Positions 2,341-30,675 of a stretch of DNA of 30,675 nt are shown here, one piece after another. The notes beneath the pieces are model-generated. The model was not told where the DNA came from, did not search any database, and saw only the letters and a list, made by a program, of their open reading frames with translations. The position numbers and the translations under genes were made by a program. Origin of the DNA: a virus; IMG/VR virus record IMGVR_UViG_3300017744_000086, positions 1 through 30,675 of that record; one strand, written 5' to 3'. Positions within the stretch are counted from its first letter, which is position 1, and every line of letters starts with the position of its first letter.

Positions 2341-2997
2341 ATGCGAAACCGTATTAGTAAACATACAACTGCTAAGAAAAAAGAAATAAGACCTAACCCT
2401 AATAATTGGAGAACCCACCCACAAGCACAAACAGATAGCCTTATATCGCTTATAAAGTCTATAGGGTATGTAGATGAACTATTAGTTATAGACGACCCTA
2501 CAGGCGAATGTAAATATTTATTAGTAGATGGCGAAGCTAGATGGACCATAGCAGATGACAATGACGATTTACCTGTAAGCGTACTAGATATTACAGAAGA
2601 AGAAGCAAACATAGTTCTTGCAACATTTGACCCTATAAGTTCTTTTGCAGGCAGCGAAGCAAGCAAGTTAGATGAACTTATGAAAAACATAGACATAAAG
2701 TCACTAGAAGATGACATGCAAAAAGAAATGGCTAAACTTCTTAACAGAGTAGATAACAATTATGGCATACCACAATTAGAAGCAGAAGAAGAATGGGAAG
2801 GCATGCCAGAATATGAAAACGAAGATTTAGAATCTAAATATAAAGTTATAGTACATTTTGACACAGAAGAAGATTTAGAAAACTTTGCACATCTTATTGA
2901 CCAACCTTTAACAACAAAGACTAAGTACATATATTACCCTGCACAAGAAAAACAAAAAATTGTAGGTGAGCAAAGGTTTGCTGCAGATGATAAGTAA
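2341..2997 (+). CDS. ParB-like nuclease-domain protein (218 aa)
   Basis: The N-terminal 100 residues match the ParB/Srx fold of phage 'ParB-like nuclease' proteins: IRPNPNNWRTHP near residue 16, a helix with SIGYVDELLVID, then LLVDGEARW with the conserved D-G-E-x-R at 63-67. The middle is acidic and helical; the C-terminal section (about 165-205) is predicted alpha/beta. Such genes are frequent beside terminases, often with DNA-modification genes; direct roles are unproven. The start is fixed by the promoter, whose predicted +1 falls on this ATG. The ATG of the glycosyltransferase gene lies within its 3' end (11-base overlap). Confidence 0.8.
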   Translation: MRNRISKHTTAKKKEIRPNPNNWRTHPQAQTDSLISLIKSIGYVDELLVIDDPTGECKYLLVDGEARWTIADDNDDLPVSVLDITEEEANIVLATFDPISSFAGSEASKLDELMKNIDIKSLEDDMQKEMAKLLNRVDNNYGIPQLEAEEEWEGMPEYENEDLESKYKVIVHFDTEEDLENFAHLIDQPLTTKTKYIYYPAQEKQKIVGEQRFAADDK

Positions 2998-3892
2998 TTA
3001 CCCTATATTTATTGTTAGTAAAGGCAGATACGACAAAATGCACACACATAATGCTTTATCTGATATGCAGTTGCAACACTATATGATAGTAGAGTTAGAC
3101 GAGTATTCACTATATAAAAAAAACTTTAATAACAAATATGGCACATTGCTAATTCTAGAAAATAAATACAAAAATAACTACGATACATGTGACAACTTAG
3201 GCGACACAAAAAGTAAAGGTGCAGGTGCAGCAAGAAATTTTGCATGGCAAACAAGCATTGAGCAAGGTTATGATTATCATTGGGTCATGGATGACAACAT
3301 TAGATACTTTGCTAGATACAACAACAATACAAAAACACCTGTAGCAGATGGCACTATATTTAAATGTATGGAAGATTTTGTAGAAAGATATAGCAATGTA
3401 ACTATGGCAGGTCCTAACTATGAATTTTTTGTACCAAGTAAAAAAGGTAATAAGAAACGACCACCATATTTTCTAAACACACGCATATATAGTTGCAACC
3501 TTATAAAGAATGATGTGCCTTATAGATGGCGTGGTAGATATAACGAAGATACAGACTTATCATTGCGTATGTTAAAAGACGGTAACTGCACAATATTGTT
3601 TAATGCTTTTTTACAAAAGAAAATACAAACACAATTAGTAAGTGGTGGCAACACAAAAGACTTTTACGAAATAGAAGGCACAAAGCCTAAAAGTAACATG
3701 CAAGTAAATCTACATCCTGACGTTAGTAAAGAGGTAATTAGATTTGGCAGACCACATCATCATGTAGACTATAGTTCTTTTAAGAAAAACAAATTAAAAC
3801 GCAAAGATAATATAGAGGTATATAATAAAGTAGATAATTATGGCATGAGACACCAAGTAAGAAACAACAACGCATGGATTGATGCAAAGTGA
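2987..3892 (+). CDS. TET-associated-type glycosyltransferase (probable DNA-base glycosyltransferase), 301 aa
   Basis: It opens with YPIFIVSKGRYDKMHTHNAL, the N-terminal nucleotide-sugar-binding strand and loop of the TAGT family, followed by GAGAARNFAW (78-87), HWVMDDNIRYF with MDDN at 101-104 in the place of the DXD metal site, and RGRYNEDTDLSLRML with NEDTD at 186-190 as the likely acceptor/catalytic segment. Family members are thought to add sugars to hydroxymethylated pyrimidines made by TET/JBP dioxygenases in phage DNA. No TET gene lies in this window. The ATG at 2987 is preferred (AAAGG ten bases upstream) to an in-frame GTG at 2966. It sits directly before the terminase genes, so DNA would be modified before packaging. 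Confidence 0.8.
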   Translation: MISNYPIFIVSKGRYDKMHTHNALSDMQLQHYMIVELDEYSLYKKNFNNKYGTLLILENKYKNNYDTCDNLGDTKSKGAGAARNFAWQTSIEQGYDYHWVMDDNIRYFARYNNNTKTPVADGTIFKCMEDFVERYSNVTMAGPNYEFFVPSKKGNKKRPPYFLNTRIYSCNLIKNDVPYRWRGRYNEDTDLSLRMLKDGNCTILFNAFLQKKIQTQLVSGGNTKDFYEIEGTKPKSNMQVNLHPDVSKEVIRFGRPHHHVDYSSFKKNKLKRKDNIEVYNKVDNYGMRHQVRNNNAWIDAK

Positions 3893-5865: not shown

Positions 5866-8130
5866 ATGGGATTACGAAAAAATATTATAAACGCATTGAA
5901 CGCTTATCAAGGTAAGCCAACAAACATAGACGAGAAGGCATTATATGAAATGTCATTTAGCAGGGATTACAATGACCCACTAGGTGACGTAATGCTACCT
6001 AGAACTAACTTTGATTACCAAAGAGAAGTTGCACCAATGCTAAACAGTGCAGTTACAGCTTGTGTACATTGGTTTATGCGTAGCTTTCCAGAAGCACCAA
6101 TATGTGTATATGCAAACTACAACGAAACTACAGAAAAAATAAAACCACATCCTGCAACAGAGTTACTTAGATTACCTAACCAATATTACAGTGGCACAAC
6201 AATGATGATGTCAGTAATAGCAGATTATTTAGTTAACGGTAACGCTTACATTATGAAAGTAAGAAACTTGCAAAACCAAGTTATACAACTTTGGTACACA
6301 CCAGCAGCTTTAATAAAACCAGCATTTAGAAAAAATGACCCTACAACATTTATATCTCATTACGAATATAGACCTATAGGCTCTAAGATAGACGTAGACC
6401 CAGAAGATGTAATACATCTAAGATGGGGTCTTGACCCACAGAACAACAGAGAAGGTCTAAGTCCATTAAAAGCAGTGCTAAGAGAAATATTTACAGATGA
6501 CGAAGCTGCTAACTATTCTGCAAGCCTACTTAAAAACATGGGTGTAGCAGGATTATTTATTGTGCCTAGAGACGGCAGTGTAAATCTAAGCAGAGAAGCT
6601 GCAGAAGTTATGAAAGATAAATTTAAAGAAAGATTTACAGGTGACAGACGTGGAGAACCATTTGTATCTAACATGCCACTAGATATACAAAACATATCTT
6701 TTAGTCCTAGCGAAATGAATTTAAGAGACGTAAGAACAATACCAGAAGAAAGAGTATGTGCTGCACTTGGTGTACCTGCAATAGTAGCAGGATTAGGTGC
6801 AGGTCTTAGCCGTAGCACATTTAGTAATATGTCAGAAGCTAGAGAAATGGCATACGAGAATGGCATAATACCAGTGCAAAGATTAATAGCAACGGACCTA
6901 ACAACACAATTAATGTCAGAGTTTGAAACTGCAAATAACTTTGAGTTTGGTTTTGAGAACGACAATATAAGAATATTACAAGAAGATAGAACAGCAGAAG
7001 CTAATAGGGCAAGTACATTATTTCAAGGTGGAGTTATAACTAGAGGAGAAGCAAGGTTAATGACAGGCTTTGAATCAGAAGAAATAGATAATGTATTTAG
7101 AGCACCTACTAACATAAATGAAGTAGATAGAGACGAAAGAGCACCACTTGCACAAGCAGGAGGACAACCACAATTATTGTCTGCTAAACCTGATGAAGCA
7201 AAAGACCTAACATATAAAGAAGATAAATTAACAAGAATGGAATTTGTAGGTGCGTTAGAAGAAGATGAATTAGAACTATCTAGCATCTTTGCAAATAGCT
7301 TACAGAAAGAATTTAATAAACAAGGTGCAGATTTAGCAGATGCTTATCTTACGCACTTAGGAAACGAAGCAGAAGTAACAGGTGACAAATCCATAGATTA
7401 CAAGGACACATTTTTAAGTCAGGATGTTGGCACACTTGTTAACACTATATTGCCTTTAGGTATAGGTGGCGATAGAGCAATGAACGAAAGATTAGAATTA
7501 CTATACATTAATCATTACAAACGAGTTGCCCAGAAAACCTTTAGGCATGTCGCACAGAGGATTGGAGTAAGCGTAGTATTTAACGAACAAGATAGTATCG
7601 GACAAGCAGTATTATCACAAGGTGGTACACGCAAGGGTCTAGTTGACTTTAGTGCACAGGCAAAGAAAACATTATTTAATGTAATAAGTAAAGGTAGAGA
7701 AGATGGCGACAACCCAAAGAAGATAGCCAGACAAATTAAAACCATGATACCTGTAGGCAGATTTACAGGTTTAGCCGATAGAGAAGGCGTAGATGCTGCC
7801 AAGAAATACAGGTCCATGATGATTGCAAGAACAGAAACACACAATGCACAGAGAACAAGCACAGTATCAGGTTATGAACAATCTGGTGTTGTGGATACTG
7901 TTAGAGCAATAGATGCAAAGTATGGTGATACAGATGATGTCTGTATGGATAGAGACGGACAGGAGTTTACACTAGAACAAGCAAGAGCAGAAACAAACTT
8001 AGAGCACCCTAATGGCACACTTGACTTTGAACCTATTATAAGGACACCAAATGAAAATAATCAAAACATTTTACGAAGCAATGAAATACGAGATACTAAG
8101 CCGTTATCAACCAGCAAGAGCAAAGATTAA
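5866..8130 (+). CDS. Portal protein fused to a MuF-like head morphogenesis domain, 754 aa
   Basis: Residues 1 to about 430 are an HK97-type portal: VNGNAYIMKVRN, DVIHLRWGLDPQNNREGLSPL, a clip/stem region, and IPEERVCAALGVPAIVAGLGAGL in the crown. An acidic linker (430-520) follows. Residues about 600-745 look MuF-like: MIARTETHNAQRTSTVSGYEQ, VRAIDAKYGDTDDVCMDRDGQ and EHPNGTLDFEPII, the last with G where many MuF proteins have the Cys of HPNCRC. Portal and MuF are often separate genes; here a single frame covers both. The portal is the DNA channel at the capsid vertex; MuF proteins are minor head proteins, sometimes ejected. Confidence 0.88.
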   Translation: MGLRKNIINALNAYQGKPTNIDEKALYEMSFSRDYNDPLGDVMLPRTNFDYQREVAPMLNSAVTACVHWFMRSFPEAPICVYANYNETTEKIKPHPATELLRLPNQYYSGTTMMMSVIADYLVNGNAYIMKVRNLQNQVIQLWYTPAALIKPAFRKNDPTTFISHYEYRPIGSKIDVDPEDVIHLRWGLDPQNNREGLSPLKAVLREIFTDDEAANYSASLLKNMGVAGLFIVPRDGSVNLSREAAEVMKDKFKERFTGDRRGEPFVSNMPLDIQNISFSPSEMNLRDVRTIPEERVCAALGVPAIVAGLGAGLSRSTFSNMSEAREMAYENGIIPVQRLIATDLTTQLMSEFETANNFEFGFENDNIRILQEDRTAEANRASTLFQGGVITRGEARLMTGFESEEIDNVFRAPTNINEVDRDERAPLAQAGGQPQLLSAKPDEAKDLTYKEDKLTRMEFVGALEEDELELSSIFANSLQKEFNKQGADLADAYLTHLGNEAEVTGDKSIDYKDTFLSQDVGTLVNTILPLGIGGDRAMNERLELLYINHYKRVAQKTFRHVAQRIGVSVVFNEQDSIGQAVLSQGGTRKGLVDFSAQAKKTLFNVISKGREDGDNPKKIARQIKTMIPVGRFTGLADREGVDAAKKYRSMMIARTETHNAQRTSTVSGYEQSGVVDTVRAIDAKYGDTDDVCMDRDGQEFTLEQARAETNLEHPNGTLDFEPIIRTPNENNQNILRSNEIRDTKPLSTSKSKD

Positions 8131-8145
8131 GCAATTTTATAGTAT

Positions 8146-8778
8146 ATGGAAAGAGACAAAGGAGAAATACGACAAGTTGAAGTGGTAAAAGAAAGACCTA
8201 TAACAGAATGGCATTATGGTAATTTACCACCAGCATACCAACCAGCATCTGAATCAGGTGTAGTGGGGCAAAGATGTGGTAATTGTAGTTTTCATGATGC
8301 AAGTTATTGTAATAAGTGGGAAGAATTTATACACATTAATTTTTGGTGTAAGTCTTGGCAATCGTTAGACCCTTTTGCAGAAATGTCACCACAAGAAATG
8401 ACTGACTATGATAAACAGTATTTAACAGAACTAAAGAAGTATGAAAGCATAAACTTTAAGCCACCAGAAAGTGTCGCAAAGGCAGCAAAGCGTGGATTAG
8501 AACTAAGAGCAGAATATAATAGAGGTGGTACATCTGTAGGAGTAGCAAGAGCAAGAACTTTAAGTAATAGAACTAAAGTAACACCAAGAACTATTGCAAG
8601 AATGGTTAGTTACTTTGCTAGACATGAAGTTGATTTAGATGCACCTGCTGCTAAAAGAGGTAATGACGGATTCCCTAGTGCTGGTTATATAGCATGGCAA
8701 CTATGGGGTGGTAACGCTGGTAAATCATGGGCAAACAAAATTAGAGGGCAAATAGTTAGGGAAGATGAACGAGACTAG
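8146..8778 (+). CDS. Phage head-region protein with N-terminal Cys cluster and a conserved C-terminal domain, 210 aa
   Basis: The N-terminal part (about 40-75) has four cysteines, CGNCSFHDASYC then FWCKSWQ, like the small HiPIP-like or zinc modules encoded near phage portals. The C-terminal part (about 105-200) carries RGLELRAEYNRGGTSVGVAR, RTIARMVSYFARHEVD and PSAGYIAWQLWGGNAGKSWA. I recognise this pattern from phage head-gene clusters, often joined or next to prohead proteases, but its biochemical role is not established. The start follows the portal gene by 15 bases with no clear ribosome site. The end overlaps the Com-like ORF by 14 bases. Confidence 0.7.
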   Translation: MERDKGEIRQVEVVKERPITEWHYGNLPPAYQPASESGVVGQRCGNCSFHDASYCNKWEEFIHINFWCKSWQSLDPFAEMSPQEMTDYDKQYLTELKKYESINFKPPESVAKAAKRGLELRAEYNRGGTSVGVARARTLSNRTKVTPRTIARMVSYFARHEVDLDAPAAKRGNDGFPSAGYIAWQLWGGNAGKSWANKIRGQIVREDERD

Positions 8779-8911
8779 AATATTTCAACCTATAACTGAC
8801 ATTGGACCTAGATGCCAACATTGTAATAAAATGTTAGCTTACGAAGCTACAAGACCTTACAGTATTAAATGTAATCGTTGCAAAGAAACCACGACAGTTA
8901 ATTATAAGTAA
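8765..8911 (+). CDS. Com-like zinc ribbon protein (48 aa)
   Basis: A small ORF overlapping the previous gene. It encodes RCQHCNKMLAYEA...IKCNRCKE, two CxxC knuckles (17-20 and 36-39) that can bind one zinc. The size and the spacing with a conserved K-L/M after the first knuckle match the Mu Com family, whose founder binds mom mRNA and allows translation of a DNA-modification enzyme. Com-like ribbons occur in many phages without mom, and no mom gene is seen here, so an RNA- or DNA-binding regulator is the safest description. Confidence 0.75.
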   Translation: MNETRIFQPITDIGPRCQHCNKMLAYEATRPYSIKCNRCKETTTVNYK

Positions 8912-8912
8912 C

Positions 8913-8941
8913 TTGACATAATTAAAGAAGTGTGATAATCT
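8913..8941 (+). promoter_or_regulatory. Promoter at the left end of the accessory island
   Basis: TTGACA (8913-8918) starts two bases after the Com-like stop. With a 17-bp spacer the -10 is TAATCT (8936-8941), aligned with the other repeated promoters; GATAAT (8934-8939) with a 15-bp spacer is the alternative. A short leader ends in TATGGAGGACAA before the ATG at 8973. Confidence 0.65.
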
Positions 8942-8972
8942 ATAGATATTAACAATAGTCTATGGAGGACAA

Positions 8973-9302
8973 ATGACTACACATAATAAAGTAGACAGAC
9001 TTAAAGACTTGTTACTGCAAAGAGCAGAATTGCAAGTACAGATAAATGCAGAACTTAAAGCATTTGATGTATGTGGTGTAATTTTCTGTGGTGCAATGGG
9101 TAACAAGTGCAGAATATGCGATAAGCATAATGCAATCAGGAAGATGGGCAACGAGGAACTAAGAAAGCTAACTAAGGTTATAAACCAAGTTAGGCTTACG
9201 ACTAACATGCCATCATTAAAACGTGGTGGTTATGCTAGAAGGATTTACGCTTTAAGACAAGCATCTATAAGCGAAATCAAGGCTAGGTACAGTGACATCT
9301 AA
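8973..9302 (+). CDS. Hypothetical protein with a four-Cys cluster (109 aa)
   Basis: First gene of the accessory island, with its own promoter and a perfect GGAGG site. The N-terminal 30 residues are an amphipathic helix; then come four cysteines in FDVCGVIFCGAMGNKCRICDKH (about 33-49), a plausible zinc or Fe-S site, and a basic helical C-terminus (KRGGYARRIYALRQ). A small nucleic-acid-binding protein is possible but no family is recognised. The next gene starts at a GTG inside its last codons. Confidence 0.7.
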   Translation: MTTHNKVDRLKDLLLQRAELQVQINAELKAFDVCGVIFCGAMGNKCRICDKHNAIRKMGNEELRKLTKVINQVRLTTNMPSLKRGGYARRIYALRQASISEIKARYSDI

Positions 9303-9582
9303 TTTACAAGATGCTTTACTAGATGTAAGTAACTGCAGGGTAAAACTTGCAGTTACTCCTAGTGGTCAACAGATGGTAACATTTACTGACCCATGTAAAA
9401 AGTATGGTTGTCTTGATTGCCACGCAAATAATTTAGTAGAATGTATGTGCCCATGTTGTATGAATACATGTGATTGCATAGAGCCAGAATATTATGCTTG
9501 TGAAATATGTGGTTACCATGACCCAAACGGTAATAGCCTTAACCCAAAATATAATTGTTACAGAGAAATACCAGACCACTAA
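9292..9582 (+). CDS. Cysteine-rich hypothetical protein (96 aa)
   Basis: A GTG start at 9292 overlaps the upstream stop by 11 bases, consistent with translational coupling. The 96-residue product contains 13 cysteines between residues about 14 and 88, many in CxxC-like pairs (PCKKYGCLDC, MCPCCMNTCDC, ACEIC). That is enough for two or three zinc sites or Fe-S clusters. No signal peptide. Function unknown. Confidence 0.65.
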   Translation: MTSNLQDALLDVSNCRVKLAVTPSGQQMVTFTDPCKKYGCLDCHANNLVECMCPCCMNTCDCIEPEYYACEICGYHDPNGNSLNPKYNCYREIPDH

Positions 9583-9601
9583 TATTATTTTAAATAAAGA
9601 C

Positions 9602-9629
9602 TTGACATTTTTAAAGATTGTGTTATTCT
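9602..9629 (+). promoter_or_regulatory. Second island promoter
   Basis: TTGACA (9602-9607), a 16-bp spacer containing TTTTTAAAGA, then TATTCT (9624-9629). The leader ends in ACTTGGAGGTCAAA before the ATG at 9661. The -35, the T/A tract and the leader are close to those at 350 and 30529. Confidence 0.72.
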
Positions 9630-9660
9630 ATATATAAATAACAGTGACTTGGAGGTCAAA

Positions 9661-10269
9661 ATGAACAACACAATAACAAGAGCAGATGTAGAAAACAACA
9701 CTAACATCAGAGTACAAGTAGCAGAAGGCAATGACGTGCTATGGTCATTACCTACTTTAAAAAAGCACATGGATTCAATGTGGTCAGAAGTAGAAAAAAT
9801 AGACGATTTGCTAAAGAAATGTGGCGAACCAACAATACATCTATCAAACATACTTAATAAGGTACAACTTGATTTACATTCTGCAAAACATCACATCTTA
9901 CGACAATTAGATGAAATTTATAGTACAGTTGACGGTGCTAAAGCATTTATTGCTTGTAACAGTCACCCTGATACTATGGTTAACCCATGCCCTTGCAGGT
10001 ACTACGCTTCTAGAAACTATGGTGTAAGCAAAGTTGCACACGTTGTAGTTCTTAGAGACGGTAGCGTACTTAAAGACTTTGACAGTGACGATATTGTAGA
10101 TAGTTGTGCTAGTACAGAATTAGCAACTGACCCTAACGCACCAGAAGTTTGGGTAGAAGATATTGTACAACCAGAAGCGTGTGACGAATGTGGCACAGAG
10201 CCAGAAAAACATGACCAAATGTACAGTGTTACATTATGTGATAACTATGTGAAAGGATATGCAGAATAA
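9661..10269 (+). CDS. Hypothetical protein (202 aa)
   Basis: The start is set by GGAGG eight bases upstream and the promoter; an in-frame ATG at 9649 lies before the ribosome site and is not used. A coiled-coil-like helical section (about 30-85, LKKHMDSMWSEVEKIDDLLK) precedes a mixed region with a PCPC pair and a beta-rich tail with CDECG. No known family. Its stop overlaps the ATG of the next small ORF (TAATG). Confidence 0.7.
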   Translation: MNNTITRADVENNTNIRVQVAEGNDVLWSLPTLKKHMDSMWSEVEKIDDLLKKCGEPTIHLSNILNKVQLDLHSAKHHILRQLDEIYSTVDGAKAFIACNSHPDTMVNPCPCRYYASRNYGVSKVAHVVVLRDGSVLKDFDSDDIVDSCASTELATDPNAPEVWVEDIVQPEACDECGTEPEKHDQMYSVTLCDNYVKGYAE

Positions 10270-10406
10270 TGTCAGTAGTATTAGATACAATAAAATTGCT
10301 TAAAGCACAAGGTAAGTGGTCTGACACACCACTTACGGGCAAGGACTACAAACCATTGCCTACTTACAAAAACAAAAAGACTAAACAACAACACTTGCCA
10401 ATATAA
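10269..10406 (+). CDS. Small hypothetical protein (45 aa)
   Basis: A 45-residue ORF whose ATG overlaps the upstream stop in TAATG, a typical coupled junction in this genome. The product starts MSVVLDTIKLLKAQGKW and ends in a basic, Gln-rich tail. No recognised domain. It fills the gap before the next promoter. Confidence 0.55.
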   Translation: MSVVLDTIKLLKAQGKWSDTPLTGKDYKPLPTYKNKKTKQQHLPI

Positions 10407-10409
10407 GGC

Positions 10410-10438
10410 TTGACATAATTAAAAAACTATAATAAGAT
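10410..10438 (+). promoter_or_regulatory. Third island promoter
   Basis: TTGACA (10410-10415), a 17-bp spacer and TAAGAT (10433-10438). A leader of about 29 bases ends in TACTTGGAGGTACA before the ATG at 10468, nearly the same as the leader at 391-407. Confidence 0.65.
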
Positions 10439-10467
10439 AAATAAAAATACAGGTACTTGGAGGTACA

Positions 10468-10962
10468 ATGACTACAACAAATAAAGACATAACAGACAAC
10501 GAAAGAGCAATGACGTTCTGGTTTATCCTACACGCTTCTGCATCATCAGCATCAGAAGTAATAGGTAAGAGAAACGAAAACGCAACCTACATAGAAGAAC
10601 TTGCACAAGATATAGATGCAATGGTGGCTCTAGATGCTAGATATGACGTAAGTCTAAAGCACAAGATTGCAGAACTTAAAACTAAGTTTGAGTTATACGA
10701 AAAACAAAATGACAACTTGTTTGAGGAATTGCTTGACTTAGAAAGAGTTGCAATTAATGCTTACGCACAATTAGTACAACAAGGTTTTACAGAAGTAGCA
10801 CTAAAGACTATTACAGAACCACTAGGTTTTGCAGATGACTATAACGAGTTCAACACATGGTACACACAACGTGAGTATATGATTGATGAATTTTTTACAG
10901 AAAATAAAGTTGACATGCGTTTCATATATAGACGAAACCAATCAAGTCAAATGAGTTTCTAA
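10468..10962 (+). CDS. Hypothetical helical protein (164 aa)
   Basis: The leader and first codons (ATGACTACAACA) match those of the 408 gene. The product is predicted almost wholly helical, with an acidic middle (residues about 40-100) and aromatic residues near the end. No membrane segment or signal peptide. Its stop lies four bases before the 5' strand of the hammerhead ribozyme, so its mRNA would end in the ribozyme's 5' product if cleavage occurs. Confidence 0.7.
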   Translation: MTTTNKDITDNERAMTFWFILHASASSASEVIGKRNENATYIEELAQDIDAMVALDARYDVSLKHKIAELKTKFELYEKQNDNLFEELLDLERVAINAYAQLVQQGFTEVALKTITEPLGFADDYNEFNTWYTQREYMIDEFFTENKVDMRFIYRRNQSSQMSF

Positions 10963-10966
10963 GACA

Positions 10967-11024
10967 GTAACACTGACGAGCCTTGTATAGGCGAAACTAC
11001 TTACAACCGTAGGTAGTCTGTTAC
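10967..11024 (+). ncRNA. Type I hammerhead ribozyme
   Basis: All conserved parts are present in order. Stem I 5' strand GTAACA (10967-10972); core CTGACGA (10973-10979); stem II GCC (10980-10982), loop TTGTATA, GGC (10990-10992); core GAAA (10993-10996); stem III CTAC (10997-11000) closing a 12-base loop with GTAG (11013-11016); T11017, which pairs with the last A of GAAA; cleavage residue C11018; stem I 3' strand TGTTAC (11019-11024), the exact complement of GTAACA. Stem I carries both ends, so it is type I. Cleavage after C11018 would split the transcript between the genes at 10468 and 11060. Activity is inferred from the consensus. Confidence 0.88.
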
Positions 11025-11059
11025 AGAAAGTAGCAAAAAAAAAAGTCTTAGGAGGACAA

Positions 11060-11722
11060 ATGACTACACAACAAAAAATAGATTTACCACACTACGAAGG
11101 TAAGATAAACATAACAAAAGTAAAAAACGAACACAACGATTATTACGATAACAATGCCGTAAAAATAGAACATATTGCTCTTAACGGTAACCTAGAATCG
11201 GCTTGTACATTTTCTAGTCACCTAATAGTAAGAAAAATTAGCAGTGCAATATTCTTGTTAGATGAACAGATAAGCAATCATAAGAAAGACCTTAGCAAAC
11301 ATGTTGGCATTTTAAATGGTATACAATTTGCTAAAAAAGAATTAGATAAACATGGTCAAATAACACAAACTGCAATAAATATTTTAAATAAACAAATAGA
11401 CAAGCAGTTAGTAGACAATGATATAAGACTAAAAAAGATATCGTTTTTAAGCCATGCAAGAAGCACGATAAAAATATTACGAGAAGCAGTAGGTCTTAAT
11501 TGGAGACATACCGATAGCCTAAAAGAAGCACTATTAGTAAGAAACCAAGATGATTTTAAAGAACTGTTAGAACTTGTTGCTTCGGTTCAAGGTTTGATAT
11601 GGCATCCAACAACATTTGAGGACAGAGACACTAATGCCTATGTTGATGAACTTAAACAAACAAGACTTGAAGGTGGTGTGATACAACATTACCTAGATAG
11701 AGTAAGTACACATGTTAGATAA
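11060..11722 (+). CDS. Hypothetical protein (220 aa)
   Basis: Last gene of the island. It has a TTAGGAGGACAA ribosome site and begins ATGACTACACAA like the 8973 gene. It has no promoter of its own; the 5' leader is the hammerhead ribozyme, which after cleavage would leave about 41 bases with an A10 tract. The product is soluble and mostly helical (about 70-200), with a possible coiled coil around LDEQISNHKKDLSKHVGIL. No family recognised. Confidence 0.72.
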   Translation: MTTQQKIDLPHYEGKINITKVKNEHNDYYDNNAVKIEHIALNGNLESACTFSSHLIVRKISSAIFLLDEQISNHKKDLSKHVGILNGIQFAKKELDKHGQITQTAINILNKQIDKQLVDNDIRLKKISFLSHARSTIKILREAVGLNWRHTDSLKEALLVRNQDDFKELLELVASVQGLIWHPTTFEDRDTNAYVDELKQTRLEGGVIQHYLDRVSTHVR

Positions 11723-11727
11723 TTTAC

Positions 11728-11773: not shown

Positions 11774-11818
11774 GGGTGGGTCAAGCTAATTCGTAATGCT
11801 TGACCTACCCTTGTTTTG
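11774..11818 (+). terminator. Rho-independent terminator closing the accessory island
   Basis: GGGTGGGTCAAGC (11774-11786) pairs with GCTTGACCTACCC (11798-11810) with one G-U pair and an 11-base loop, then TTGTTTTGT. It separates the island from the prohead protease gene. Confidence 0.88.
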
Positions 11819-11841
11819 TATGTTCTAATAATAATAGTGCA

Positions 11842-11869
11842 CCTTTTACCTTGTGTGCCGTAAAGGTAT
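11842..11869 (+). promoter_or_regulatory. Hairpin in the leader of the prohead protease gene
   Basis: ACCTTTTAC and GTAAAGGT can pair with one bulged base around the loop CTTGTGTGCC, just upstream of the AAGGAG ribosome site at about 11870. It may modulate translation. I see no clear promoter between the terminator at 11818 and the ATG at 11883. Confidence 0.35.
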
Positions 11870-11882
11870 TAAGGAGTATTAT

Positions 11883-12611
11883 ATGCTAGAAAAAAAGACA
11901 CTAAGCAACATTGAATTTAAAGTAGATGGAGACGAAGCTGGCACTGTAGAAGCAATCTTTAGCGTTTTTAACGTAAGAGATTATGACGGTGACGTAGTTA
12001 AGTCAGGTGCAATTCCAAATGACACAAAAGTAACAATGGCGTGGGCACACGATTGGTCTAAGCCTGTAGGCAAGGGTACAGTTACAGTTGATGACAACAA
12101 AGCAATATTTAAAGGCAAATTCTTTACAGATACCGACAGTGGTAACGAAGCATATAAAATTGTAAAGAACATGGGTACGGACCAAGAATGGTCGTGGGGA
12201 TTTAAAGCCTTAGAGACTAAAGACGGCAACCCAGAAAATTACGAAGGCTTAAAAACTAGGGAGATTACCAAAGTAGATATCTTTGAAGTATCCCCTGTAT
12301 TAAGAGGTGCTAATGCTCACACAGAAACATTAGCAGTCAAATCTAGGCAACAATCTTTTGCCGACCAATGCAAGTCAACTCTTGATGTTGTATCTTCTTT
12401 GGTGGAACGTGCTAAATCTCTTGCAGATTTAAGAGCAAAAGACAACCGTACAATAGGTGAAACATCTAACGAAGCATTACTAGATGTTGTAGATGAACTA
12501 CAGAAATGTATTGACACTATAACAGCAGTATCTAAGTCAGATAGCACTGATGAGTACGGACAAGTCTTGCGACAAGTTGCAGGGCGTTTTTACAAAACCA
12601 ATACAAAATAA
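11883..12611 (+). CDS. HK97-type prohead protease (S78/U35), 242 aa
   Basis: A serine protease that trims the capsid scaffold during head maturation. Visible are SVFNVRDYDGDVVKSGAI (27-44), WAHDWSKPVGKG with the probable catalytic His56, EWSWGFKAL with Ser104, and FEVSPVLRGANAHTETLAVKS ending the protease domain near residue 160. The last 80 residues are helical and charged, which suits a scaffold-like tail. AAGGAG lies seven bases before the ATG at 11883; a GTG ten codons upstream is less likely. The capsid gene follows after 14 bases. Confidence 0.93.
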   Translation: MLEKKTLSNIEFKVDGDEAGTVEAIFSVFNVRDYDGDVVKSGAIPNDTKVTMAWAHDWSKPVGKGTVTVDDNKAIFKGKFFTDTDSGNEAYKIVKNMGTDQEWSWGFKALETKDGNPENYEGLKTREITKVDIFEVSPVLRGANAHTETLAVKSRQQSFADQCKSTLDVVSSLVERAKSLADLRAKDNRTIGETSNEALLDVVDELQKCIDTITAVSKSDSTDEYGQVLRQVAGRFYKTNTK

Positions 12612-13880: not shown

Positions 13881-14684
13881 ATGGCAGTTCTTAAAACTAC
13901 CGAAATTAACTCTATCAAAGGTTCAGGTGCTGGTTTTTCAGTAAACTTAAACTTTGGTGATGAGAAAATAGAAACGGCAGCACAAGAGTTAGCACTTGGC
14001 ACAGTCGGCATTTTACCTGACGGTAGAAAGTTCCGATATGCTAAAAACAGTTCAGCAGCAATTACAACAGGTGGTCAAATCGTAGAAGGTGAAGCTATGG
14101 TAGCAGCACACGATATGGATGTACCTGTAACTGCACAAACTGCAGCAGGAAGTTCTACAATAAGTTTAGAAGTTCCTACAACAGACTTAACACTTAATCA
14201 ATACGCAAACGGTTACATCTACATCAATGATGGTGAAGGGCAAGGTGAATTGTATAGAATACTATCTCATCCTGCTCATGATGCTTCTGCTGATGCAACA
14301 TGTGTGTTTACATTAGATAACGAAGTAACTAAGACACAACTAGAGACAACATCTTTAGTTGGTCTTGTTTACAACCCGTACTTTAATGTAGCAATAATTG
14401 ACGGTGACGGTACAAGAATTGGTAGACCTTTAGGTGTATCAACAGCACCAGTTACAGCAAATTACTACACATGGATACAGACTAATGGTATTGCTACAGT
14501 GTTAGCAGGTGCAGCAACTGGTGTAGTAGGTGATGGTATGAAAGTAAGTCAAGCATCAGCAGAAAGTGGTGGTGCAGACTTATTTGATACATCTGCCAAC
14601 CAAGACACAGAACCAATAGGTACTGCACTTGGAGTTACAGCAGTTGAATCAGACAACCAATTAATTTACTTAGGTTTAGACTAG
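13881..14684 (+). CDS. Probable head decoration or capsid-associated protein, 267 aa
   Basis: It lies 19 bases after the capsid gene with AGGAGG upstream. The product is rich in Gly, Ala, Thr and Val with predicted beta-strands throughout and no membrane segment: ELALGTVGILPDGRKFRYAKN, NQYANGYIYINDGEGQGELYRI, then GVVGDGMKVSQASAESGGADLFD. Position and composition fit a protein exposed on the capsid, but no named decoration family is recognised with certainty. Confidence 0.65.
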   Translation: MAVLKTTEINSIKGSGAGFSVNLNFGDEKIETAAQELALGTVGILPDGRKFRYAKNSSAAITTGGQIVEGEAMVAAHDMDVPVTAQTAAGSSTISLEVPTTDLTLNQYANGYIYINDGEGQGELYRILSHPAHDASADATCVFTLDNEVTKTQLETTSLVGLVYNPYFNVAIIDGDGTRIGRPLGVSTAPVTANYYTWIQTNGIATVLAGAATGVVGDGMKVSQASAESGGADLFDTSANQDTEPIGTALGVTAVESDNQLIYLGLD

Positions 14685-30558: not shown

Positions 30559-30592
30559 ATCTTTATACAACAAAACAGACTTGGAGGTCTAA

Positions 30593-30675
30593 ATGAAAAA
30601 CCAACGTATAAAAGATATACAAGCAAGACTAAAAAAAGGTTTTGACAATACACAATACATGTCAAGAACTTTTGG
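30593..30675 (+). CDS. Start of an unknown gene, cut by the window end
   Basis: The ATG follows a GGAGG site and a promoter. The 27 visible codons give a basic helical start (MKNQRIKDIQARLKKGFDN). Too short to name. Confidence 0.6.
   Translation, partial: MKNQRIKDIQARLKKGFDNTQYMSRTF

Follow-up and report, generated by a model that had tools for sequence, protein, structure and literature searches.

We found that a non-coding gap between two small phage genes holds a complete type I hammerhead ribozyme (plus strand, 10967-11024), which probably acts in cis, cleaving itself to process a two-gene transcript and so splitting expression of the downstream gene from that of the upstream gene. The window, that is, the whole stretch of DNA that we analyzed, is a linear viral contig of 30,675 bases carrying terminase, portal, protease, capsid, and tail genes, and derives from an uncultured, probably marine phage. 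The ribozyme site falls in a variable stretch between the portal gene (5866-8130) and the head protease (ORF from 11853), where the genes are small and without known relatives.

Read base by base, the element begins with the 5' strand of stem I, GUAACA (10967-10972), which forms 6 bp with the 3' strand UGUUAC (11019-11024). This strand is followed by the conserved core CUGACGA (10973-10979) and by a 4-bp stem II (10980-10992), in which GCCU (10980-10983) pairs with AGGC (10989-10992) around the loop UGUAU (10984-10988), a loop also seen in identical form in other phage hammerheads. The remainder, GAA (10993-10995) and stem III (together 10993-11017; reading and fold), contains ACUACUUAC (10996-11004) paired with GUAGGUAGU (11009-11017) over 9 bp, a count that includes the A15.1-U16.1 pair and one G-U, and is closed by the loop AACC. 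The element thus displays the hammerhead core (CUGANGA ... GAA with the A15.1-U16.1 pair), the type I topology (three stems round the core, with stem I open and loops closing stems II and III), and a UH site (H not G), formed by U11017 and C11018 between stems III and I. Cleavage is predicted between C11018 and U11019; we take C11018 to be H17, with the cut 3' of position 17 in the numbering of the hammerhead family. When 10963-11030 was folded with ViennaRNA, exactly the hammerhead structure was obtained (-19.3 kcal/mol). A preliminary description of this DNA had placed a type I hammerhead, cleaving after C11018, at the same coordinates between two genes; its identity, position, cleavage site, and intercistronic place all hold on our reading, as do stem I (6 bp) and stem II, but stem III, given there as 4 bp (CTAC/GTAG), is 9 bp long.

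To score the locus, we used a covariance model of 38 phage hammerheads from other contigs, with the window's own ribozyme left out, which gave the window ribozyme 52.0 bits (E 1.3e-14). No second hammerhead was found in the window, where the best other match to this model reached 13 bits. A rough composition-based estimate puts chance occurrence in the window at about 2e-8 with stems as long as these, and at about 9e-5 when much shorter stems are allowed. In the search with Rfam hammerhead models proposed in the preliminary description, two families matched the locus, but both scored under their curated cut-offs (RF03152 RAGATH-1-hammerhead, the best-scoring Rfam model: 37.3 bits, cut-off 56.3; RF00163 Hammerhead_1: 20.5 bits, cut-off 34). 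The RF00163 model shares the type I topology of the window ribozyme and matches it over its full length at the same coordinates; the score stays under the curated cut-off despite the presence of every structural feature, and that cut-off is a threshold of the database rather than a structural trait of the class. Membership in RAGATH-1 was ruled out by the score and by a different stem II (1 bp in the model vs. 4 bp in the window ribozyme), and the upstream hairpin of that model has one mismatched pair in the window sequence. The scores below the Rfam cut-offs speak for a chance resemblance or an inactive relic, but given the E-value from an independent model and an intact core, cleavage site, and set of stems, we find this explanation scarcely credible. 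By sequence and predicted fold, the element is confirmed as a genuine type I hammerhead.

A pattern taken from the window sequence, consisting of the core with the GCC/GGC stem II, matched at least 120 viral contig stretches. Stems I and III are formed in 113 of the 124 matches listed with enough flank (type I: 85; type III: 28), and 91% of these 124 have at least 8 pairs in all, vs. 1.4% with shuffled flanks, indicating that selection maintains the fold in the phage family. We used this shuffled-flank test in place of a pair-by-pair covariation count, since the parser's own demand for pairing makes that count partly circular. Parsing yielded 144 type I hammerheads among the matches listed (135 distinct); stem I has exactly 6 bp in 107, and the cleavage site has a C in 132. 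Where loop II has 5 nt (n = 59), U is the first base of the loop in 57 and the last in 57, and an A stands on each flank of stem I (57/59 each). The window ribozyme shows all four of these peripheral features, none of which was used in finding it; its UNNNU loop II and the A on either side of stem I are a candidate tertiary contact. Judged by its architecture, the window ribozyme belongs to a phage family that is abundant. Some phage contigs carry clusters of at least four hammerheads between small genes (L117, L038, L096, L057, and L095), and those in L117 and L038 comprise six or more.

The gene upstream of the ribozyme (plus-strand ORF 10468-10962; 164 aa) ends with a TAA at 10960-10962, 4 nt before the ribozyme, and the downstream gene (plus-strand ORF 11060-11722; 220 aa) starts with an ATG at 11060 behind a Shine-Dalgarno sequence, AGGAGG (11050-11055), with 41 nt between cut and ATG; the 97-nt noncoding gap with its ribosome site was therefore correctly described before. 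The upstream gene has no PHROG match and only sub-threshold Pfam matches, and its C-terminal part is 47% identical in the sister contig L012. The downstream gene has no PHROG or Pfam match, the one relative found lies in the near-identical contig L001, and the gene that occupies the corresponding position in contig L013 is not homologous to it. The claim that this context is undescribed is thus true of the two flanking genes, which lack PHROG or significant Pfam matches, but overrates the novelty of the arrangement, as phage hammerheads between small unknown genes have been described since 2011. A possible promoter of a two-gene unit lies at 10410-10438 on the plus strand (TTGACA, 17 nt, TAAGAT; 10/12 matches); such promoter-like sites, found ahead of genes 9649 and 10468 with 10/12 matches each, are not above chance in the region, and the same promoter scan detected none in the 97-nt gap. 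The unit appears to be closed by a likely terminator hairpin read from the sequence (plus strand, 11774-11819; a 13-bp stem, then TTGTTTTGT), which is conserved in L012; its loop is larger than 8, and it is hence outside the automated hairpin listing. The protease ORF beyond it is listed from a GTG at 11853, and an AAGGAG ahead of the ATG at 11883 suggests that the true start is 11883.

The placement of the window ribozyme resembles that of the family, whose ribozymes typically adjoin a stop codon and precede a Shine-Dalgarno start by 23-46 nt. Counting ORFs of at least 60 codons, 35 of 131 ribozymes have a stop codon 0-10 nt to their 5' side, vs. 3.5% at random positions. In 64 cases the stop overlaps the first ribozyme bases, compared with 24% when ribozymes were pasted at random, a background that arises because ribozymes themselves contain stop codons. 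For 68 of 126 ribozymes, a start with a Shine-Dalgarno sequence follows no more than 45 nt after the cut, vs. 6.2% at random (median cut-to-start distance among starts within 120 nt of the cut: 27 nt). From these counts, the order stop, ribozyme, Shine-Dalgarno sequence, start is a property of the family.

How the ribozyme would work follows from this arrangement. The unit would be transcribed as the 10468 gene, the ribozyme, the 11060 gene, and the terminator, the RNA of the gap would fold during transcription, and it would then cut itself in cis 3' of C11018. The upstream mRNA would be left with a 2',3'-cyclic phosphate on a compact, structured 3' end. The downstream gene would be carried by a separate monocistronic mRNA that starts with a 5'-OH and a 41-nt leader, so that expression and decay of this gene could be uncoupled from the upstream gene without a second promoter. 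E. coli RNase E is reported to cleave 5'-hydroxylated substrates poorly, via its 5' sensor, and, as unpublished data cited there, no efficient 5' kinase acts on hammerhead ends in E. coli (PMC4191395). For hosts with a similar RNase E, this supports by analogy the view that a 5'-OH may stabilize the downstream mRNA; matching against bacterial genomes yielded no host for this phage. We infer cleavage, the two-gene transcript, the effect on mRNA stability, and the benefit to the phage, and the processing role is a reasonable reading that is consistent with the family-wide position statistics.

Folding of the full leader revealed a competitor of stem I. Its 3' strand UGUUAC can also pair with a GUAGCA further downstream in a predicted hairpin (plus strand, 11019-11036), and in the minimum-energy fold of the full leader stem I is broken in favor of this hairpin (-25.0 vs. 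-22.2 kcal/mol). In ViennaRNA, a model without tertiary contacts or Mg2+, the probability of stem I is 0.8-0.9 until the transcript reaches about 11032 and drops to 0.01 once 11036 has been transcribed. Since the full-leader fold breaks stem I, cleavage needs co-transcriptional folding or tertiary stabilization in this model, and may depend on co-transcriptional timing. The predicted loss of stem I raises the idea of a regulated switch, in which the hairpin competes with stem I, the cut fraction is set by transcription speed, by ribosomes leaving the upstream stop, or by Mg2+, and expression of the downstream gene in turn follows the cleavage state. Across the family, hairpins of this type are no more common than in shuffled flanks (10% vs. 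12%), so that a product-capture hairpin was rejected as a family trait and the one seen here is possibly incidental; we consider regulation of this kind, and likewise its control of the downstream gene, unlikely. After cleavage, the hairpin would form the 5' end of the downstream mRNA.

Comparison with related contigs revealed that the ribozyme and the downstream gene form a 765-bp cassette (plus strand, 10963-11727), because both are absent together from L012, which is 99.8% identical to the window across 6.9 kb downstream and in which the stop of the 10468 homolog directly joins the sequence of window 11728 onward. Another contig, L011, starts exactly at the cassette boundary. A second case is given by L035 (149-2236) and L040 (2658-4745), which share 2,088 bp at 99.95% identity from one base before a hammerhead, while the genes upstream of the shared block are unrelated; on this comparison, ribozyme and downstream sequence were exchanged as a block. 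In both cases, window/L012 and L035/L040, the aligned sequences have the ribozyme traveling with its downstream gene, and the two could pass from one phage to another as a single cassette. Neither contig L013, which is 70% related, nor other head-gene relatives have the ribozyme, which is therefore dispensable. The whole portal-to-protease stretch (8146-11722) differs strongly between the window, L012, and L013, and is an accessory-gene region amid head genes.

These observations would also fit an active passenger, that is, a ribozyme that marks the module boundary of an accessory cassette without benefit to expression, the gene being under selection or the ribozyme mildly selfish: the cassette is wholly present or wholly absent, many relatives lack the ribozyme, and the identity of flanking genes varies, as it also does elsewhere (PMC3088659). 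On the other hand, the strict spacing to the stop codon and the Shine-Dalgarno sequence, together with a fold kept despite divergent stems and a peripheral signature that is kept as well, suggest functional selection. Hammerhead junctions were also rejected as general recombination hot spots, the enrichment of alignment ends over other junctions not being significant (odds ratio 1.4-2.0, P 0.07-0.3). A passenger is thus an improbable explanation in our view, and we favor the processing of the two-gene transcript.

Hammerheads of this class are already known, and the window element, real as it is, is ordinary in kind. Hundreds of bacterial and prophage hammerheads were reported by Perreault et al. 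(2011; PMC3088659), who found clusters flanking genes of varying identity, demonstrated cleavage of hammerheads of the class in vitro and in E. coli, and raised the idea that cleavage turns long polycistronic phage transcripts into mRNAs of gene length. The window ribozyme shares with the phage and prophage hammerheads of this study and of a later review (PMC6155905) the core, the open stem I with three stems, the cleavage site, the position between small phage genes, and the proposed transcript-cutting role; it differs from them in being a single copy, in its place among the head genes, between portal and protease, and in its new flanking genes. In retrozymes and similar elements, hammerheads give rise to circular RNAs (PMC6155905), and the cut ends could likewise be rejoined, by a ligase or the reverse reaction, into circular or spliced RNA. 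The window holds only one ribozyme, and such products were sought but not detected for prophage arrays (PMC3088659), which makes rejoining very improbable here.

Close likenesses to the window ribozyme occur in pelagiphages. In the cultured Pelagibacter phage HTVC142P (L151, OR420754.1; recorded host Candidatus Pelagibacter sp. HTCC7211), positions 663-726 form a type I hammerhead of the same architecture, whose stem I, GUAACA/UGUUAC, is identical to that of the window ribozyme; the gp3 stop lies inside the hammerhead at its 5' edge and gp4 starts at 750. Two more of the same architecture (30574-30634 and 32722-32781) are present in Pelagivirus MedDCM-OCT-S35-C6 (AP013542.1). Both are T7-like phages unrelated to the window phage, and stem III is longer in their hammerheads. 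These hammerheads carry no annotation in the sequence records, and we found no description of hammerheads from pelagiphages or Caudoviricetes in the open-access literature. By reading, the end of the HTVC142P record (about 39620-39673) also holds a type III hammerhead just ahead of gp1.

The role of hammerheads in phages was called an open question in the review (PMC6155905), and why phages keep them has been asked since 2011. With the family-wide positions, the two cases of joint movement or joint loss, and the same element in a Pelagibacter phage that is in culture, the processing hypothesis can be put to the test in infected cells. More tentatively, and with rather more doubt than confidence, phage hammerheads may be portable intercistronic processing modules that are acquired with a new gene and, whichever stop codon of a foreign operon the pair is inserted behind, provide that gene with its own mRNA, so that no promoter is needed; competition from downstream sequence during transcription would tune the cut yield.

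Elsewhere in the window, an Rfam match to mir-3198 on the minus strand (14580-14656; 30 bits vs. a cut-off of 91) lies in coding sequence and was dismissed as chance. At 2341-3892, a ParB/methyltransferase-like gene stands beside a gene matching phage beta-glucosyl-HMC-alpha-glucosyltransferase (PHROG 842, E 4e-46), a pair that may point to hypermodified phage DNA.
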